Positions 2,559 to 59,656 of a DNA stretch of 64,000 nt are shown here, in pieces. The DNA comes from Magnetospirillum gryphiswaldense MSR-1 v2. GTDB lineage: Bacteria > Pseudomonadota > Alphaproteobacteria > Rhodospirillales > Magnetospirillaceae. Under the pieces are notes generated by a model. That model saw only the letters and a program-made list of their open reading frames with translations, had not been told where the DNA came from and did not search any database. A program made the position numbers and the translations under genes. Position 1 is the stretch's first letter. The number at the start of each line of letters is the position of its first letter. Where the stretch lies: the NCBI RefSeq assembly GCF_000513295.1, contig NC_023065.1, forward strand, positions 434,001 through 498,000, given 5' to 3'.

Positions 2559-4649
2559 ATGTTTTCTAACATGAACATTGGGGCGCGCATGTCCCTTGGG
2601 TTTTTCCTCGTCCTGGTTTTGACCTTGGCTATTGGCATCATCGCCGAAATTTCTTCGGCGCAATTGTCGGAATTGACGGCCAAGCTGTATCGGCATCCCT
2701 TTGCCGTCACCAATGCGCTGTCCGACGCCAATGCCAACATCATCGCCATGCATCGGTCGATGAAAGACGTGGCGCTGTCGCAGACACCCGAGGACCTAGC
2801 CAAGGCTGTGGCCGACGTGGATGCGCGGGAAAAGCGGGTCTACGACAAGTTCAATCTGGTGCGCGAACGCTTCCTGGGCGACAAATCCGACGTCGAGGCG
2901 GCGGCCAAGGCCTTCGCCGATTGGAAGCCAATCCGCGATCAGGTGATCGTCGCCATCCGCGACAATCGGCGCGAGGACGCCGCTGAAATCACCAAGACCA
3001 AGGGGGCGGTTCAGGTCGCCTCCATCAATGCCACCTTGGACAAGGTGATGGTCTTTGCCTTCGACAAGGCCGAGGCCTTCATGGTCAATGCCCAGGCGAC
3101 CAAGGACCGTATGACCATGATCACCCGCCTGTGTTTGGGCGGCGCTCTGATTTTGGGCGTGACCGTAGCTTGGTGGATCACCCGCGGCATCAGCCGGCCC
3201 ATCAACGCCATGACCGGTGTGATGGATCAACTGTCGCAGAACAAGCTGCAAGTTGACGTCCCCTATGCTGGCCGTGGCGACGAAATCGGTCGCATGGCCA
3301 AGTCGGTGCGCCACTTCAAGGATCAGTTGGTGCGGGTGCACCAGCTTGAACAAGAGCAGGAAGAGCAGAAGCGCCGGGCCGAGGTCGATCGTATGACGGC
3401 CATGCGCAAGATGGCCGACACTTTTGAAGGCAGCGTCGGTGCGGTGATCAATACCGTGACCTCGGCGGCGACCGAGTTGCAGGCGGCGTCCAGCCAGATG
3501 GCCGGCACCGCCACCGAAACCAGCGCTCAGGCGACCACGGTGGCGTCTTCGGCGCAACAGGCCTCGGCCAATGTGCAGACGGTGGCCTCGGCCACCGATG
3601 AACTGGCCGCCTCCATCGAGGAAATCACCCATCAGGTGGAACGGGCGCAGACGGTATCCGGTCGGGCCGGGACCGAGATGGACAAGGCCACTCTTCAGGT
3701 GGAAGCCCTGTCGGAAAATGTCGGCAAGATCGGCGAAATCGTCAGTCTGATCGATCATATCGCCAGCCAGACCAATTTGCTGGCGCTGAATGCGACGATT
3801 GAGGCGGCTCGCGCCGGTGATGCCGGTAAAGGCTTCGCCGTGGTGGCCAACGAGGTCAAGGGGCTGGCCAACCAGACCGCCAAGGCCACCAGCGAGATCG
3901 CCACTCAGATCCAGGCGGTGCAGCAAGGGACCGCCGCCGCCGTCCATGCCATCGGCGACGTATCTTCGGTCATCGCGGAAATGGCCGCCATCAGTGCGGC
4001 GGTCGCCGCCGCCGTCGAACAGCAAAGCGGCGCCACCAACGAAATCGCCCGCAATGTCGAGCAGGCCGCCGACGGCACCCAGCAGGTGACGGAAAATATC
4101 GTCTCGGTCGAGCAGGCGGCGCGGGAAACCGGATCGGCGGCGGAACAGATCAGCATTTCCGCCACCGATCTGTCGAAGCAGGCGGAATATCTGCGGCATG
4201 AAGTCGGGCAGTTCCTGTCCCAGGTGCGGGCCGACAAGACGAAAATGGTTCTGTTGACCTGGACCGACAATCTGGCCAGTGGCGTCGCCAGCATCGACGC
4301 TCATCATCAGGAAATGTTCGCCCAGTTGAATGCCTTCTACGGCGAGATGATGGCCGGCGACAGCGGCAAGGGGGCGTTGACCATGTTGGCGGCCATTGAA
4401 CGCAGCATGTCCACCCATTTCGCCGAGGAAGAAGCGCTGATGACCAAACACCGCTATGGCGCCGCCGATACCCATCGCGGCCACCATCGCGACTTCCTGG
4501 CCAAGGTGGCGTTGATGCGTCAGGACATCGAGGGGCAAAAGCCCAATGCCATGGCCAATTTCTTCGATTATGTCTCGACCTGGTTGGCCGAACATATCGG
4601 CAAGGAAGACAAGGCCCTGTTCACCGCCCTTAAAACCCAGGCGGCGTAA
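2559..4649 (+). CDS. Methyl-accepting chemotaxis protein with C-terminal bacteriohemerythrin domain
   Basis: A 696-residue transmembrane chemoreceptor. There is one membrane segment at residues 12-30 and another at about 188-207, enclosing a periplasmic helical region of the 4HB type. HAMP follows (about 208-260), then the signalling domain with the conserved hairpin tip [20 protein letters not shown] around residues 407-428. The last 130 residues are a hemerythrin domain with all the usual di-iron ligands: H583 in IDAHHQ, HFAEE (HxxxE), HRGHH (HxxxH) and HIGKED (HxxxxD). Hemerythrins bind O2 or are oxidised by it, so this receptor probably feeds oxygen or redox information into the CheA pathway. 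The architecture resembles DcrH of Desulfovibrio. Start chosen at the first ATG, preceded by GTGAGG. It has its own promoter region and terminator, so it is probably monocistronic. Confidence 0.95.
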
Positions 4650-52368: not shown

Positions 52369-53262
52369 ATGGAAAACATACTGACGCTGATCGCCGGCCC
52401 AAAGGTCGGTCTGACCGACGCCATGGTGGCGGATATCCGCCAGGGATTGAAAGCCTTGGGCGCCCATGTGGCGGCGGCCCAATGGCTGTCGCCGGGCAAG
52501 GCCTGCGATCTGGCCTTCGGCGACCTTGCGCCGGAACAGGCAGACGCCGCGGCCCGTCAGCGCCTGGGTAAAGTGGCCGTCGACGTGGTGGCCCAAGCCG
52601 CCCAGGGTCGGCGCAAGCTGCTGCTGGTGGCCGACATGGATTCCACCATGGTGGTGGGTGAGACCCTGGACGAACTGGCCGAATATGCCGGCATCAAGGA
52701 TCGTATTTCCGCCATCACCGCGCGGGCCATGAACGGCGAGATCGGCTTCGAGGCCGCGCTCAAGGAACGGATCGGCCTGATGGCCGGAGTACCGGAAACC
52801 GCCTTGGCCGAAACCTGGGCCAAGACCCGGCTGATGCCCGGCGCCCGCACCTTGGTGCAGACCATGAAGGCCAACGGCGCCTATGCGGTGCTGGTCTCGG
52901 GCGGCTTCACCTATTTTACCACCCGCGTGCGTGAGGCTTGCGGTTTCGACATCGATTTGGGTAACCGCTTCATCTTCACCGACGGCAAGCTGTCGGGGGT
53001 GGAAGACCCCATCCTGGGGCGTGAAACCAAACTGGCCACGCTGATCGGCACGGCGGGCGAACGCAAGATTCCGCTGGCTCTGGCGGCGGCGGTGGGCGAT
53101 GGCGCCAACGACCTGGATATGATCAAGGCCGCCGGCCTGGGCGTGGCCTATCAGGCCAAGCCGGTGGTGGCGGCTGAAGCCCGCGTGCGCATCGACCATG
53201 GCGACCTGACGGCACTGCTTTATGCCCAAGGCTATGGCGATGACGACATGGTGGAGGGGTGA
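52369..53262 (+). CDS. serB: Phosphoserine phosphatase
   Basis: A HAD-family enzyme for the last step of serine synthesis, 297 residues. An N-terminal ACT-like segment (about 1-85) precedes the phosphatase. HAD motifs: VADMDSTMVVGE (nucleophile and acid Asp), VLVSGGFTYFT, a Lys in ETKLATLIG, and AVGDGANDLDMI. An alternative TTG one codon upstream adds only a Met. Its TGA ends one base before the ATG of the next gene. Confidence 0.96.
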   Translation: MENILTLIAGPKVGLTDAMVADIRQGLKALGAHVAAAQWLSPGKACDLAFGDLAPEQADAAARQRLGKVAVDVVAQAAQGRRKLLLVADMDSTMVVGETLDELAEYAGIKDRISAITARAMNGEIGFEAALKERIGLMAGVPETALAETWAKTRLMPGARTLVQTMKANGAYAVLVSGGFTYFTTRVREACGFDIDLGNRFIFTDGKLSGVEDPILGRETKLATLIGTAGERKIPLALAAAVGDGANDLDMIKAAGLGVAYQAKPVVAAEARVRIDHGDLTALLYAQGYGDDDMVEG

Positions 53263-53263
53263 G

Positions 53264-53554
53264 ATGGCTGATTTCCGCTATTTCACCACCTATACCGGCG
53301 TGCGCCTGCCGTTGAAGCTGGTGGGGCCGCTGGCCGAAACCGAAATCTCCAACCGCAATACCTTCATCCGCGCCCATTTCGACGGCGCCGAGCGGGTGGT
53401 GCGGCTGGAAAAATGCGTCTATGGCGCCGTGGTGCTGGGCCACGCCTATGACTACCACCCCAACGGCGCCTTGAAGCGGGCGGAAATCGTCGTCCATGAC
53501 GAGGACGACGAAACCACCGTGTTGCATTTCGACGAAAACGGCACCGCCTGTTAA
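53264..53554 (+). CDS. Small conserved-looking hypothetical protein coupled to serB
   Basis: 96 residues, soluble, beginning MADFRYFTTYTGVRLPLKLV. It lies one base after the serB stop with GGAGGGG upstream, so translation is probably coupled. It is rich in beta-strand-like segments and acidic near the end (VHDEDDETTVLHFDENGTAC). A YHPNGALKRAEIV stretch faintly recalls the Y..nG repeats of YwqK-type proteins, but I do not assign a family. Its TAA overlaps the convergent decarboxylase stop on TTAA. Confidence 0.75.
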   Translation: MADFRYFTTYTGVRLPLKLVGPLAETEISNRNTFIRAHFDGAERVVRLEKCVYGAVVLGHAYDYHPNGALKRAEIVVHDEDDETTVLHFDENGTAC

Positions 53555-54798
53555 ACCACCACGTTGGCCAAGGCTGAGTTCAACGGCACGATCTGGCTGT
53601 CATTCTCGCCGTAGGGCTGGGGCGGGATGAAATCCAGCGTTACCCCCGGCTGGAAGATCAGGCAATGGGTCGAGCCGCCGTATTGGAAATAGCCGATCTC
53701 GTCGCCCTTGGCCACGGTTTGGCCGATTTTCACCGCGATGATGCACGACGAGATTTCCGCCATGCCGACGAAGATGCAGCCGACCTTGCCCAGGGCCGGG
53801 TTGCCGGTGTCGATGACCATCACCGCCCGCGTCGCCACCGCGGTGATGAAGCCTTGGGAATTGTTGGGGCCGGCGGGGTCCAGACCTTCCGACGGCGCGT
53901 CGGCGTAATAGGTGCCGTTGACCACATAGGCGTCAACCACCGTACCGGATACCGGCGCATGCCAGCGATGGTAATTATAGGCCGACAGAAACGCCTGATA
54001 GACGGTGCCGCCGACAAAGGTTTCCGCCAGATCGCGGCGGTCGGCGGTGAACATGTCCATCAACGAATAGGGCTGGGTCTTGATCCAGAACTTGTCGAAC
54101 AGATTGACCCCGGTCTGTAGCGCATAGGGGCCGGATTCGCAGGCGGCGGTCACCACCAGCGCATTGTCGGGGCTGGCCACCGGGCGCATGCCCGGCTTGA
54201 ACAGACGGGTGAAGAAATCATTCCACGAGCGATAGCCCCAATGGGGCAGGGCAGGGTCGCAGATGAATTCCGACATGTTGACCTTGGTGGCGGCGGTGGT
54301 GCTGAACCAGCCCTTGGGATTGTCGGTGTTCAGATAATCGCGCGAGTTGGGACCGGACAAAAAGTCCGACCAATAACCGAGCACGGCGCGGATTTTCTCG
54401 TTGATGGCCGGGAACTGGAAGAAGGCGAAGCCCGACGGCATGCACATGGGCCAGTCCAACAGGGCGTTCAGCGGGCAGCCGACCAGGGACGAAGTGGAAA
54501 ACGGCGGGGCGTAATGCATGACCGCGTTGATCCGCCGCATCAGCCCGTCGATATCGGCATAGCCCAAGCGATAGCCGGCGGTGTGGGCCTGCTCGATGGC
54601 CTGGGTCAGGTGCATGCGGTAAAGCGGCGTTTCCATGATGCAGTCGTAAAGCGCCTGCACCGGGCGCACCAGCGGGCGGTCGGGATGGGCGGCGACCTCG
54701 GCCTCGATTCCCAGGCGGAACTCGGCCAGCGCCGCTTCGTCCATGGGCAGCCAGCCACCGGGACGGGATTTGTTGATGGTGATGGATTGCGTGGTCAT
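53551..54798 (-). CDS. PsiD-like decarboxylase (phosphatidylserine decarboxylase superfamily)
   Basis: 415 residues: an N-terminal accessory domain (about 30-170), found in PsiD-type proteins but not in ordinary phosphatidylserine decarboxylases, followed by the decarboxylase domain. The conserved NYHRWHAPVSGTVVDAYVV is present. The predicted self-cleavage site is GGS with S376 in FQYGGSTHCLIF, which would generate the pyruvoyl group. There is no membrane anchor. Family members such as fungal PsiD decarboxylate tryptophan; a free aromatic amino acid is therefore a possible substrate, but phospholipid cannot be excluded. Confidence 0.85.
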   Translation of the reverse strand: MTTQSITINKSRPGGWLPMDEAALAEFRLGIEAEVAAHPDRPLVRPVQALYDCIMETPLYRMHLTQAIEQAHTAGYRLGYADIDGLMRRINAVMHYAPPFSTSSLVGCPLNALLDWPMCMPSGFAFFQFPAINEKIRAVLGYWSDFLSGPNSRDYLNTDNPKGWFSTTAATKVNMSEFICDPALPHWGYRSWNDFFTRLFKPGMRPVASPDNALVVTAACESGPYALQTGVNLFDKFWIKTQPYSLMDMFTADRRDLAETFVGGTVYQAFLSAYNYHRWHAPVSGTVVDAYVVNGTYYADAPSEGLDPAGPNNSQGFITAVATRAVMVIDTGNPALGKVGCIFVGMAEISSCIIAVKIGQTVAKGDEIGYFQYGGSTHCLIFQPGVTLDFIPPQPYGENDSQIVPLNSALANVVV

Positions 54799-54920
54799 GG
54801 TCGGGCCTCCCCCACTTATGTTGGCATGAAACGCCGCCAGCAGGATGGCACGAAATCAGATAAACCTAAAACGTGTATTTTGTTATAAATTGTCTATCTT
54901 TGGTTTGATTGCGGGGTATG

Positions 54921-54952
54921 AAAAAGCCCCGGCAGGGTGTGCCGGGGCTTTT
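54921..54952 (-). terminator. Terminator after the 48-residue histidine-rich gene
   Basis: A perfect 13-bp stem AAAAGCCCCGGCA / TGCCGGGGCTTTT with a five-base loop, followed on the minus strand by an extra T and C. It begins 12 bases after the stop of the small gene, which supports that gene being a real transcript. Confidence 0.92.
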
Positions 54953-54964
54953 GCGAACCGAGAT

Positions 54965-55111
54965 TTAATGGTGGCCGTGGCCGCCATGGCTGTCATGACC
55001 GTGACCATGGCCGTCGCCGGCGGCCTTGCCCGAGCCCACGCACATCAGCAGGCCATAGACGGCGACCGACGCGACCAGCAGCAAAATGACCCCTTGCAGC
55101 ACACCGGACAT
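54965..55111 (-). CDS. 48-residue membrane protein with histidine-rich C-terminal tail
   Basis: Translates as MSGVLQGVILLLVASVAVYG followed by LLMCVGSGKAAGDG and the tail HGHGHDSHGGHGHH. One membrane helix spans about residues 4-24. Seven of the last fourteen residues are His, an obvious metal-binding (Ni, Cu, Zn or Co) tail. GGAG lies seven bases before the ATG, and a strong terminator follows the stop. It starts 62 bases after the stop of the UrtA-chemoreceptor gene, so the two could share a transcript. No family recognised; a metal chaperone or small regulatory subunit is conceivable. Confidence 0.85.
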   Translation of the reverse strand: MSGVLQGVILLLVASVAVYGLLMCVGSGKAAGDGHGHGHDSHGGHGHH

Positions 55112-55173
55112 GGCTTTTCTCCATTGATTGATTGCCGCGAAACTGGCACGGCGCGGGGGTTGAAGTCAACCGG

Positions 55174-57375
55174 CTACTCGGCCGCCAGGGCCGGGGCTGG
55201 CGTGGGTTGCTCCGGCTCCGGCGCGATCAGTCCGCTCGAGCGCCAGACGATGGCGATGGAGCCGTCGGCCTGCATGCGGCCCAGCAGGCACGGCTTATGC
55301 AGGTGGTTGTTGGTGTCATCGACGGAGACATCGAAACCGGTCAGCGACCGGGTCTTCTGTCCGGGCAAGGCCGCGCGCACCTTGTCCGGCTCGGTGCTGC
55401 CGCAGGCTTCCACCGCCGCCGCCCACAGGCGCAAGGCCATGACCGACGCCTCCATGGCGTCGTTGACCACCGCCTTGGGGTTGGCGCAATGTTGCCGCCA
55501 CTGGCGCAGGAAGGCCTGGTTCTCCGGCGTGTCGATGCTCATCAGATAGTTCCACGCCACCATGTGGCCGGCCAGCAGGCGGGGATCGAGCAAGGCGGCC
55601 TCGGCCTCGCCGATGGAGACGGTGAGCACCGGCACCTCGGCGCCGCCCAATTGGCGGAAGAAGTGGAAGTTGCTGTCGCCGCCCACCGTGCTGACCACCA
55701 GCGCCTTGCCGCCACCGGCGCGGGCGAAGGCGCGGATATCGGCCACTGCCCGGGCCCAGTCGTCGGCGCCCACCGGCAGCAGGGTTTCACGCAGGCTCTG
55801 GCCGCTTATACCGCGTCCGCGCAGGTAATCGGTCAGCACCTTGTGGGTCAGACGCGGATACAGGGTGTCGTTGCCGATCAGGTAAAAACGACTGTATCCG
55901 CCGCCCTCGGCGCTCATCAGATATTGGATGGCCGGCAGCAATTGCTGGTTGGGCGGGGCGCCGCAATAGACGACGTTGGCAGCGGCCTCGGCCCCCTCGT
56001 ATTGCGACGGATAGAACAGCAGGCCGTTGCGGTGGCCCAGCACCGGCAGGGTTTCCTTGCGCGCGGTGGAACTCCAGGCGCCGAACAGCGCCTGTACCCG
56101 GTCGTGGCCCAAGGCCTGATCGGCCAGTTCGGCGGTGCGCTTGGCATCCGATCGCGGATTGTAGAGCAGGGCTTCGACCGGGCGTCCCAACAGGCCGCCA
56201 CGGGCGTTGAGCGCCGCCACTTCCATCAGCAGCACATCCTTCAACGGACGTTCGCCCACGGCCGAGCCACCTGACAGCGAATGCAGGATGCCGATACGGA
56301 TGGCGCCGTGATCAAGGTCGTCCAGGAAGGTGCCGACGGCTTGGCCCAAGGTGTCCGATTGCTGGCCCAGCGCCCCGGCGGCGGCGTGCACGCTGTCGGC
56401 TTCGGCTCGGGTCTGGCTGCTGGCTTCGGCCACATCCTCGATGGAGGCGCTCATGCTTTCGGCCTCGGCGGCGGTGGCCCGGACGCCATCGGTGATGGCC
56501 CGGCTGGCGGCACTTTGCTGGTGCATGGTGGCGGCGATGGCGGCGACCAGGGCGTTGACCTCGTGCATGGAGCCGCCGATGGCATTCATGGCTGCCACCG
56601 CCTGATCGGTGGCCTGACGGATCTCGCCGGCGCGCCCGTCGATTTCGGCGGTGGCTTTCTCGGTTTCGGTCACCAGATTCTTGACCTCGGCGGCGACCAC
56701 GGCAAAGCCCTTGCCGGCCTCACCCGCTCTTGCCGCCTCGATGGTGGCGTTGAGCGCCAGCATGCGGGTCTGGCCGGCGATGTCGGAAATGGTGCGAGCC
56801 ATGCCGCCGATGCGCCCGGCGGCGTCGGACAGGCCGCGAATGGTGGCATCGGCGCTATCCACCAGTCCCACCGCCTGGGTGATGACCTGGGCGGCGCGGC
56901 TGGCCCGGCCTTCCAACTCGCCCAAGGACTGGTCCAACTGGCCAGCGGCCTCGGCCAGCACGGCGGCTTCGCTGGTGGCGGTGGCGGCACCGGTTTGCAC
57001 CTGCTGGCTTTTTTCAGCCACGGTGCCGGCCTGGGCGACCAGGGCGCCGGCGGCGTCGCGCATGCTGTGGGCGGCATTGGACAGGTTTTGCTGCACGCCG
57101 GTGACCGTGCCTTCGAACTTGCCGATGAAGCTTTCCATGGAGCGGTGGCGTTGTTCCTGCACCTCGCGGTCGGCTTCCTGTTCGGCGATGGCGGCATCGG
57201 CCTCGACCAGCGCTTGGCGCATGGCCTCGACGGCGCGGGCCAGCCGGGCGGCGGCATCAGTGCCGGTTTGATGGGGGACTTTGACGAAGCGGTCGCCGGC
57301 GGCGATTTCTTCGGCGGCTTTGGCCAATTCGGCCAGTTGGGGCTTACGGGAAAAGGGTGAAACCGATTTCACCAT
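55174..57375 (-). CDS. Soluble chemoreceptor fused to a UrtA/FmdD-type amide-binding domain
   Basis: 733 residues with no signal peptide and no membrane segment. Residues about 1-90 are helical; about 90-350 are a chemoreceptor signalling domain with the hairpin [20 protein letters not shown]. From about 357 the protein is a full-length type I binding protein of the UrtA/FmdD (urea/short-chain amide) family: [87 protein letters not shown] and [12 protein letters not shown] all match. Such domains are normally periplasmic; here it must be cytoplasmic, presumably sensing an imported amide or urea. Start at 57375 has GGAGG upstream. Confidence 0.92.
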
Positions 57376-57501
57376 GACGGCCTCCGGGTTGTGGCTCCGC
57401 CCCAGCCGTAGCAATCGGCATGCCGCCGCCCAGGCCAAGCTTATCCGTGGTCGTCAACCAGGGCGCGCCGACAAGATAGGCAGTCTGGCTTAAAACAAGG
57501 C

Positions 57502-57540
57502 AAAAAAGACCCCGGAAAACACATGTCTTTCCGGGGTCTC
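57502..57540 (-). terminator. Terminator after ccoG
   Basis: A perfect 12-bp stem AGACCCCGGAAA / TTTCCGGGGTCT with a nine-base loop, starting 13 bases after the ccoG stop and followed on the minus strand by TTTTTTG. Confidence 0.93.
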
Positions 57541-57552
57541 GGGATGGGCGGA

Positions 57553-59019
57553 TTATTTATCCGGTCCGGCAAACAGCGTCTTGCTGCGGATGGGTTTTCC
57601 GCTTTTTCCTTGCTCGGTCAGGACAAAAGTCAGGTCGGCACTGCGTCCGGGCAGAACGTTTTCGGGAACGTTGACGAAGATGCGGTAGGTGGCGACCTGA
57701 TCCTTTTCCACCTTCAGCTCCAATTCGGCGGCATCGGCCTTGCCGCCGACCACTTCCAAAGTGGCGCCAGCCAAGCCTTCGGTCTTCAGTACATAGGTGC
57801 GGTCCTCGCGCACCATGTTGAGAATCTTGTAGGCATAGCCGTTGCGGACCGATCCGTCGGACAATTGCACGTAAAGCGGCGCGCGTTCGTGCAAAACGTT
57901 GACTTCGGTGGTGGAGCGGGTCAGCAGCGATACCAGCATGATGCCGGCGACGATGGCCAAAAGGCCGGCATAGAGCACGGTGCGGGCGCGGATGGGCTTG
58001 ATCCCCGGCGCTTTCCGTCCGGCCTCGCGCGCTTCCAGGTTGACCTGGGAATCATAGCTGATCAGGCCGCGCGGCAGGCCGAACTTGTCCATGATCTGGT
58101 CGCAGGCGTCGATGCAGACACCGCAGCCGATACAGGCCAATTGGTTGCCGAAGCGGATGTCGACGCCGGTGGGGCAGGATTGCACGCACATCTTGCAATC
58201 GACGCAATGGCCGCGATCAGCGAAATTGCGGTCCTTGGGGGCGGGGGCGCGCGGTTCGCCGCGCCAGGCTTCATAGCTGACGATCAGCGAATGTTCGTCG
58301 AACATGGCCGCCTGGAAGCGCGAATAGGGGCACATATAGACGCACACCCGTTCGCGGGCGAAGCCGCCCAACAGGAAACAGAAGCCGCCGATGATGATGA
58401 TGAAGACATAGGCGGCGGTGGGCGCCTCCAGGGTGAAGATGTCCTTCAGCATCTGGAAGGCGTCGCCGAACCACAGCGTCACACCGATGCCGCAAGCGGC
58501 CGAGACCAGTGCCCAGGCGCCGACCACCACACTCTTCTTGGCCAGTTTGCCGACACTGGTGGGGGCGCGTTCAAAAGTGATGCGGGCGGTGCGTTCGCCG
58601 ATCACCCAGCGTTCGATGTTCTGGAACAGATCGGTGTAGACCGTCTGCCAGCACAAGAAGCCGCACCAGACACGCCCGGCCAGGGCGCTCATCAGGAACA
58701 GGGAGATGGCGGCGATCAGCAGCAGGCCGGTGACGTAATAGATTTCCTGCGGCCAGATCTCGATATCGAAGAAATAGGCGCGCCGTCCGGCCATGTCGAG
58801 CAAGATGGCTTGTCCCGGCGCGTCGGGACCGCGATCCCAGCGCAGGAACGGTCCCAGATGCCACCAGGCCAGCAGAATGCCCGAGGCCCACCATTTGAGA
58901 TTGCGGAACAATCCCTTGACGCCGCGCGGTACGGCTTGGCCATTTTCGCGGTAAAACGGAACCTCGCCCTTGGTGGGCTGGCGCTCGGTGATCTGATCAG
59001 GGTCGATGGTCGCGTTCAT
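57553..59019 (-). CDS. ccoG: Cytochrome cbb3 oxidase accessory protein CcoG (polyferredoxin)
   Basis: A 488-residue membrane protein with about five helices. Two 4Fe-4S ferredoxin motifs: CVDCKMCVQSCPTG and CIGCGVCIDACDQI. The upstream membrane part includes AGRVWCGFLCWQTVYTDLF and RERVCVYMCPYSRFQAAM. The C-terminal Ig-like domain is periplasmic. CcoG (FixG/RdxA) reduces copper during cbb3 oxidase assembly. Unusually, no ccoNOPQ or ccoIS genes are adjacent. A perfect Crp/Fnr-type palindrome (59076-59091) lies about 60 bases upstream, consistent with oxygen-dependent control. Confidence 0.95.
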   Translation of the reverse strand: MNATIDPDQITERQPTKGEVPFYRENGQAVPRGVKGLFRNLKWWASGILLAWWHLGPFLRWDRGPDAPGQAILLDMAGRRAYFFDIEIWPQEIYYVTGLLLIAAISLFLMSALAGRVWCGFLCWQTVYTDLFQNIERWVIGERTARITFERAPTSVGKLAKKSVVVGAWALVSAACGIGVTLWFGDAFQMLKDIFTLEAPTAAYVFIIIIGGFCFLLGGFARERVCVYMCPYSRFQAAMFDEHSLIVSYEAWRGEPRAPAPKDRNFADRGHCVDCKMCVQSCPTGVDIRFGNQLACIGCGVCIDACDQIMDKFGLPRGLISYDSQVNLEAREAGRKAPGIKPIRARTVLYAGLLAIVAGIMLVSLLTRSTTEVNVLHERAPLYVQLSDGSVRNGYAYKILNMVREDRTYVLKTEGLAGATLEVVGGKADAAELELKVEKDQVATYRIFVNVPENVLPGRSADLTFVLTEQGKSGKPIRSKTLFAGPDK

Positions 59020-59075
59020 GGGTGCCTTGTCCTCCTGTCCCGAGTCCAGGTTTAGCTGAGGCTTAACCAGTTTTC

Positions 59076-59091
59076 AGTGACATTTGTCACT
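59076..59091. promoter_or_regulatory. GTGAC-N4-GTCAC palindrome, candidate Crp/Fnr-family site
   Basis: AGTGACA-TT-TGTCACT is a perfect 16-base palindrome in the divergent ccoG/GNAT promoter region, with the 5-4-5 spacing of Fnr/Dnr/FixK boxes (consensus TTGAT or TTGAC half-sites). A Crp/Fnr regulator is encoded 1 kb away (60136-60843). Confidence 0.5.
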
Positions 59092-59119
59092 AACAGCCAT
59101 GCAGGAATGGAGGGTCTGG

Positions 59120-59656
59120 TTGCGAACCCAACGCCTAATATTGCGCGCCTGGCGCTCCGACGATCTGGCCGCCTTCCGTCTCATCAACGCTGACCCCGAG
59201 GTCATGGCCCTGATGCCGTCAACACTGGATTCTGGTCAAAGCGACGCCCAGGGCTTGCGCATCATGGATAATCTGTCCACCCGCGGCTGGGGCCTGTGGG
59301 CGGTGGAAGTGCAAGGCGGCAGCCCGTTCATCGGCTATGTCGGGCTGAACGAACCGGCCCAGCCCATGCCGTTCGCCACCCAAGGCCAAACGGTGGAAAT
59401 GGCCTGGCGCCTGGGCCGTGGCCATTGGGGCCACGGCTATGCCGCCGAGGCCGCCGCTGCTGCCCTGGATTTCGGCTTTTCCACCCTGGGCTTGGCGGAA
59501 ATCATCGCTTATACGGTACCGCACAATCACCGTTCGCGCCGGGTGATGGAGCGCATCGGTCTGGTCCGCGACACTGCGGGCGATTTCGATCATCCCGTCC
59601 TGCCGCCCGGCCATGCCTTGCGCCGCCATGTTCTCTATAGAAAGAGCCGTTCATGA
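59120..59656 (+). CDS. GNAT-family N-acetyltransferase (RimJ/RimL type)
   Basis: About 178 residues of the ribosomal-protein-acetyltransferase-like GNAT class. The N-terminus LRTQRLILRAWRSDDLAAFR is the family pattern, and acetyl-CoA-binding motif A is seen as RLGRGHWGHGYAAEAAAAAL. I prefer the TTG at 59120, because GGAGGG lies five bases upstream and it gives the family start. An ATG at 59099 would add seven residues but lacks a ribosome-binding site. The stop overlaps the next gene by four bases. Substrate unknown. Confidence 0.88.
   Translation: MRTQRLILRAWRSDDLAAFRLINADPEVMALMPSTLDSGQSDAQGLRIMDNLSTRGWGLWAVEVQGGSPFIGYVGLNEPAQPMPFATQGQTVEMAWRLGRGHWGHGYAAEAAAAALDFGFSTLGLAEIIAYTVPHNHRSRRVMERIGLVRDTAGDFDHPVLPPGHALRRHVLYRKSRS

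Follow-up and report, generated by a model that had tools for sequence, protein, structure and literature searches.

How would a chemoreceptor work if its sensor were a transporter binding protein that never left the cell? The question is raised by a gene on the reverse strand (55174..57375) of the window, the 64,000-nucleotide stretch of Magnetospirillum gryphiswaldense MSR-1 v2 analysed here (NC_023065.1, positions 434,001 to 498,000). ABC-transporter binding proteins signal by docking onto receptors from outside, and SBP-type domains also act as sensors in cytosolic proteins, according to passages of one published account (PMC9602780); if the binding protein is the receptor's own cytoplasmic sensor, the cell would measure an imported or internal pool. 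On the sequence evidence set out below, the product is probably a soluble cytoplasmic chemoreceptor whose UrtA-derived C-terminal sensor reads an amide- or urea-like cytoplasmic molecule and alters CheA activity.

The gene, defined by its open reading frame and translation, Pfam matches and purifying selection, encodes an MCP::Peripla_BP_5 fusion of 733 residues when read from the ATG at which the frame of a relative (L032) also opens; an alternative TTG start is possible at 57438, 21 codons upstream. The protein comprises a HAMP-like segment (residues 14–57, 57205..57336; Pfam HAMP at 17.8 bits, below the cut-off of 25), an MCP signalling domain (residues 165–322, 56410..56883; PF00015 MCPsignal, 88.5 bits against a cut-off of 34.6, E 6.2e-25) and a UrtA-type sensor domain (residues 359–721, 55213..56301; PF13433 Peripla_BP_5, 368 bits, E 5.5e-110, likewise well above its threshold), all on the reverse strand. 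Within the MCP domain, the hairpin tip (about residues 197–234, 56674..56787, reverse strand) has many invariant columns across 37 aligned fusions, as befits an MCP. The preliminary description of this DNA, which had proposed a chemoreceptor joined to a complete UrtA-type domain with the binding domain placed second, is thus borne out by the Pfam coordinates on both counts. Purifying selection acts on both halves (NG86 dN/dS 0.09–0.28 in seven pairs). Searching the same genome with the receptor returns 58 matches, most of them to the MCP half, and among solved structures the second half comes closest to UrtA-type proteins and AmiC.

The fusion recurs in other genomes. A peptide pattern search of a species-genome collection gave 54 related loci, 44 of which carry the full-length fusion (45 rows including the window's own copy), which rules out a chance or frameshift fusion and shows the receptor class to be genuine, conserved and sensible in its build. 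The loci are titled Alphaproteobacteria or merely Proteobacteria (L036, L037, L044 and L067), apart from one bin titled Stygiobacter (L031, VBWB01000006.1), whose copy is 94% identical and which probably represents a magnetospirillum that was mislabelled. Because the loci were fetched by exact query peptides, the search would overlook more divergent members. By protein search the fusion is sparse: it was found in 8 of 55 genomes of the same family and, class-wide, in at least four of 289 (G000, G014, G217 and G094; open frames of more than 700 residues, then checked, with up to six candidates scored per genome). Across 299 genomes of the phylum, full-length matches at E 1e-100 came from G000 and G014 alone, among the three candidates scored per genome.

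In a tree of 53 fusion rows and 48 others (SH-aLRT 99), and again in a smaller tree of 21 rows (support 100/100), the sensor halves fall together in a single clade whose sister is proteobacterial UrtA. The history of the MCP halves is less clear-cut. An early tree rejected a single clade (p 4e-8), with comparators that were almost all MCPs of the same genome and a duplicate filter that seemingly dropped most window-type fusions. A better-sampled tree still split the fusions into two sets and placed the long rows L214 and L215 between them; when these rows and the split genes L072 and L073 were excluded, the MCP halves lay on one side of a branch with support 94, or 95 without L117. Because these exclusions were picked after seeing the better-sampled tree, the result supports a single MCP origin rather than proving it.

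The protein appears soluble. Its maximum 19-residue hydropathy is 1.14, compared with 2.5–3.2 in three membrane receptors encoded by this genome, by a simple hydropathy measure rather than a trained predictor, and this agrees with the claim that it has neither a signal peptide nor a membrane segment. An anchor hidden by a wrongly chosen start is ruled out, as the frame opens just 26 codons above the ATG (759 residues in all) and the 21 codons from the TTG onward were included in the scan. Nine of the 45 full-length rows share this window-type form (L001, L031–L037 and L044), with no hydrophobic stretch above 1.61, a maximum that falls in the upstream frame extension of L035. The other 36 have an N-terminal hydrophobic stretch (1.68–2.80) ahead of the HAMP-like part, which in most of them reads by eye as two helices and a short loop; L174 also has such an anchor stretch, and L117 is weakly hydrophobic there (1.47). 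Since the hydropathy maximum precedes the MCP domain in the anchored rows, a cytoplasmic sensor is expected in both forms, and the window-type receptors have most simply lost an N-terminal anchor. The sequences thus support the earlier proposal of a soluble receptor that should sense its ligand inside the cell, and its design is conserved across a family.

The MCP hairpin folds back, so that its C-terminal end adjoins the HAMP end, and the C-terminal sensor would thereby sit at the normal input end. In the proposed mechanism, the two-lobed UrtA-derived domain would close on a small amide- or urea-like cytoplasmic molecule, and this closure would alter CheA activity through the hairpin. The junction between coiled coil and sensor (residues 350–358, 56302..56328, reverse strand) is of fixed length in all 37 aligned fusions, which carry no insertion or deletion anywhere from residue 336 to 372, a span that runs from the last part of the coiled coil into the sensor; such a junction could transmit the closing motion directly to the C-terminal helix.

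Comparison with known receptors places the novelty in the type of sensor, because C-terminal sensors are known in cytoplasmic receptors. TlpD and other cytoplasmic CZB receptors are likewise soluble with the sensor after the signalling domain, but theirs is a small zinc-binding helical bundle rather than a two-lobed binding protein, as described in passages of PMC13001251 and PMC12871147, the latter of which also has the returning hairpin helix of TlpD connecting to its C-terminal sensor. The preliminary description was right about the domain order and overstated how unusual it is, in view of TlpD as portrayed in those passages. MtpA of Methylobacterium aquaticum 22A, a metabolism-linked sensor, is also cytosolic and proposed to read an internal product, although the MCP signalling domain alone is reported for it in the passages available (PMC10613068). 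In titles, openings of abstracts and passages of the open-access literature, we found no description of the MCP::Peripla_BP_5 architecture; a survey that covers plant-associated bacteria (PMC8547431) includes, among chemoreceptor sensor types, a single Peripla_BP_5 cluster containing one sequence.

What the sensor binds is best approached through UrtA. The sensor is homologous to UrtA over its full length (TIGR03407; structures 8HIC, 7S6E and 7S6F, and 8TG1, titled Extracellular ligand-binding receptor) and 45% identical to the UrtA of the same genome. It differs from UrtA in several respects: it scores 352.5 bits against TIGR03407, under the cut-off of 492.75, whereas the genome's true UrtA reaches 577.5 bits; it has no signal peptide by hydropathy; and it is encoded outside a transporter operon, between ccoG and a phosphatidylserine decarboxylase family gene rather than with urtBCDE. 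In the UrtA–urea structure, as reported in passages of PMC10392092, nine residues surround urea, of which four (Ser122, Gln144, Tyr190 and Asn246) form hydrogen bonds with it; binding was reduced or lost on mutation of any of the four. By alignment, the window protein keeps UrtA Trp120, Ser122, Tyr141, Gln144 and Glu146 as W434, S436, Y455, Q458 and E460 (55996..56076, reverse strand), and it also keeps Ser274. It carries Thr504 (55864..55866, reverse strand) at the Tyr190 position, Gly565 (55681..55683, reverse strand) at the Asn246 position and Tyr in place of Phe192. Six of eight UrtA pocket residues are therefore retained and two of the four urea hydrogen-bonders replaced, so the claim that the ligand-contact regions look intact does not stand, and the loss of pocket residues that would tell against the preliminary description has occurred in part. 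The UrtA of the same genome retains both Tyr190 and Asn246.

With two of four hydrogen-bonders changed, the pocket could also be dead, and the sensor half might then serve as a structural or protein–protein module, such as one for docking or dimerisation. We regard this as unlikely. The branch leading to the window-type clade is indeed long (0.88 in the larger tree, 0.61 in the smaller), which suits either changed or relaxed function, and position 190 is variable among 51 fusion rows, in which the window protein and L001 are identical (Y 30, T 13, S 3, D 3, F 1, N 1). The six kept residues and the Tyr at 192, on the other hand, are invariant in those rows. For Y455, Q458 and E460 this invariance is built in, because all 51 rows contain the fetch peptide FYPSQYEG; W434, S436, Y506 and S587 (UrtA positions 120, 122, 192 and 274) lie outside this search bias and are invariant in 51 of 51. 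Ten fusion rows of a 47-row set came from a plain protein search and keep W, S, Y, Q and E, and L117 and L174 retain Y, Q and E even though they lack the FYPSQYEG peptide. Selection also argues against a dead pocket, as dN/dS of the sensor half (0.09–0.24) is below that of the MCP half in all seven pairs.

At the other extreme, the receptor might genuinely sense urea inside the cell, binding it in the manner of UrtA. The retention of six key residues and the sister relationship of the sensor clade to UrtA speak for this, as does the presence of urtABCDE and urease in the same genome. The first rows to branch off in their subclades, L117 and L174 (support 86 and 90), keep Tyr190, Asn246 and the rest of the urea signature except for the Tyr at Phe192, so the ancestor of the fusions may have bound urea, with the change coming later. 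We nevertheless consider urea itself improbable as the ligand of the window protein, because Tyr190 and Asn246, whose mutation abolished or strongly reduced urea binding in the passages of PMC10392092, are Thr and Gly here. At position 246, which like 190 falls outside the search peptides, the 51 rows have S 39, G 10 and N 2. In the 47-row set Asn246 is present in four fusions and absent from 43, compared with its presence in 77 of 78 free-standing SBPs, a comparator that leans to UrtA because it was found by similarity to the window sensor (83 proteins less five taken out by hand, split or truncated fusions to which the script had given the SBP label); more distant, FmdA-linked Azospirillum SBPs have Val there. 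Urease, too, has no strong match in 9 of 22 fusion-bearing genomes. Judging from these replacements, the probable ligand is an amide or a relative of urea rather than urea itself, and the loss of Asn246 in most of the window fusion family makes a clear prediction of ligand change.

AmiC is the cytoplasmic partner of AmiR. In Pseudomonas aeruginosa (1PEA, 1QO0) it belongs to the same binding-domain family and is a regulator rather than part of a transporter (amidase operon, by PDB title), but it is farther from the window sensor (131.8 bits, against 277.8 for 8TG1), has no MCP domain and, by alignment, has Tyr and Pro at the positions of Trp434 and Gln458.

The surroundings of the gene provide no guidance on the ligand. 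Upstream lies ccoG (57553..59019, reverse strand; TIGR02745, 442 bits), separated from the receptor gene by a strong terminator-like hairpin of 14 pairs and a T run (57506..57540, reverse strand; pattern scan, which found five such sites in the region against 2.9 expected). Downstream, 375 bases away, is the phosphatidylserine decarboxylase family gene (53551..54798, reverse strand; PF02666, PF12588). The hairpin and the gap suggest that the receptor gene is probably transcribed alone, and no RNA family reached the gathering threshold within 53000–59500. No amide or urea gene was recognised adjoining the window gene or the relatives examined. In the Rhizobiales loci the recurrent neighbours look, by eye from clusters and sequence starts, like housekeeping genes, and ten scanned neighbours of L117 and L174 comprised LysR, glucosaminidase, MFS, DUF2491, SMC-type, DUF1800, LpxC, FtsZ and FtsA proteins and one without a match. 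The urtABCDE genes of this genome, in which UrtA is encoded with urtBCDE and beside urease, are located elsewhere. Among the 22 fusion-bearing genomes, urease matches below E 1e-20 occur in 13 and FmdA in four, the window's own genome not among them; such absences are soft, since some of the 22 are draft bins. Four of the eight fusion-bearing genomes of the same family have no other UrtA-type match at E 1e-40.

A more direct link to uptake comes from Azospirillum, a genus used for chemotaxis work. A search of plasmids revealed a second MCP::Peripla_BP_5 fusion there, with the same domain order and the same sensor family as the window protein. In four of four plasmid records (L220, L221, L223 and L224) the fusion lies in a cluster running SBP, UrtB-like, UrtC, UrtD, UrtE, fusion, FmdA, where the FmdA of L220 scores 777 bits against a formamidase model (cut-off 500). 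This fusion is linked directly to an amide transporter and its enzyme. The fusion frame of L224 is broken, and the start of the L220 fusion runs in another frame; a Caballeronia match (L222) showed an SBP domain over the stretch examined and was not counted as a fusion. The amide-transporter/FmdA cluster also occurs without the fusion, in Azospirillum oryzae (L225, NZ_CP054618.1), where an aliphatic amidase, a large ATP-binding protein and a response regulator are encoded on its flanks.

The Azospirillum sensor differs from that of the window protein in origin and pocket. Sequence identity of the L221 sensor reaches 73% with the SBP from the L220 cluster and 32% with the window sensor. The fusions and SBPs of L220 and L221 have an identical nine-letter pocket (WSYFEYWVS) and group together in the tree, away from the window family; L221 and L223 have a hydrophobic N-terminal hairpin. 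This grouping implies that the design has arisen on at least two occasions. Its separate origin also means that the Azospirillum fusion supports post-uptake sensing by the window-type receptors by analogy only. The earlier proposal of post-uptake sensing of nitrogen sources gains plausibility from this cluster, although no link of the window gene itself to urea uptake is supported. Post-uptake sensing of an amide- or urea-like compound is the best reading of the window receptor, and in Azospirillum, where transporter, receptor and formamidase occur together, such sensing is directly testable.

The genomes that carry the receptor were examined for its candidate CheA partner and its possible output. 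All 22 fusion-bearing genomes tested have CheW-domain matches, and 18 have FliG; two Methyloligella and two Methyloceanibacter genomes have no FliG match, and the Methyloligella genomes show just two MCP matches each at E 1e-10. A receiver-bearing CheA (CheA-REC) occurs in 21 of 22 fusion genomes and in 47 of 115 sampled class members (Fisher p 7e-7 with three shared genomes removed and kinship ignored). In the genomes without FliG, all the CheW-domain matches listed lay at CheA-REC, which accounts for 3 of 3 matches in G621 and at least 2 of 3 in G616, 2 of 3 in G623 and 2 of 4 in G618. Gene order showed a cluster of HPTransfase, CheA(REC), CheW, CheY, CheB and CheR common to the window's own genome, one Methyloligella and one Methyloceanibacter (L217 8347–14868, L218 5979–12504, and L219), the Methyloceanibacter call resting on BLAST alone with CheB in two frames; its HPTransfase is presumably ChpT-like. 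Past this cluster, L218 encodes on the opposite strand a response regulator that has a DNA-binding domain, and L219 contains a close match to it.

These observations would fit a receptor that feeds a non-flagellar output through the CheA-REC of the HPTransfase cluster, a route compatible with the cytoplasmic sensing favoured here. We think it rather unlikely, given that 18 of the 22 genomes have FliG, that the CheA-REC comparison is uncorrected for kinship and that the window's own genome encodes several CheA-like proteins, any of which could be the partner. A wider possibility, which we consider less likely than not, is that Alphaproteobacteria built post-uptake receptors, with an amide- or urea-type SBP behind the MCP hairpin, at least twice, and that Methyloligella and Methyloceanibacter, without FliG, use them with a non-motility CheA/histidine-phosphotransferase output. 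Were this true, such receptors would report the contents of the cytoplasm rather than the outside, the Azospirillum sensor being a copy of the neighbouring transporter's SBP.

Two further loci are worth recording. Elsewhere in the window (2559–4649, forward strand) lies a second receptor with a C-terminal sensor, comprising 4HB_MCP_1, HAMP and MCPsignal domains followed by a hemerythrin domain (residues 575–691). At another locus (L226 591–4579; G000:C1:2126090-2130078), a UrtA-type protein (Peripla_BP_5, 560 bits) that has a hydrophobic stretch at its N-terminus is encoded directly upstream of a hybrid histidine kinase gene (HAMP, HisKA, HATPase, receiver, Hpt and a weak dCache). The array continues with an apparent response regulator, recognised by eye, and then the urtABCDE genes, and together the UrtA-type protein, the hybrid kinase and urtABCDE perhaps constitute a urea-sensing system.
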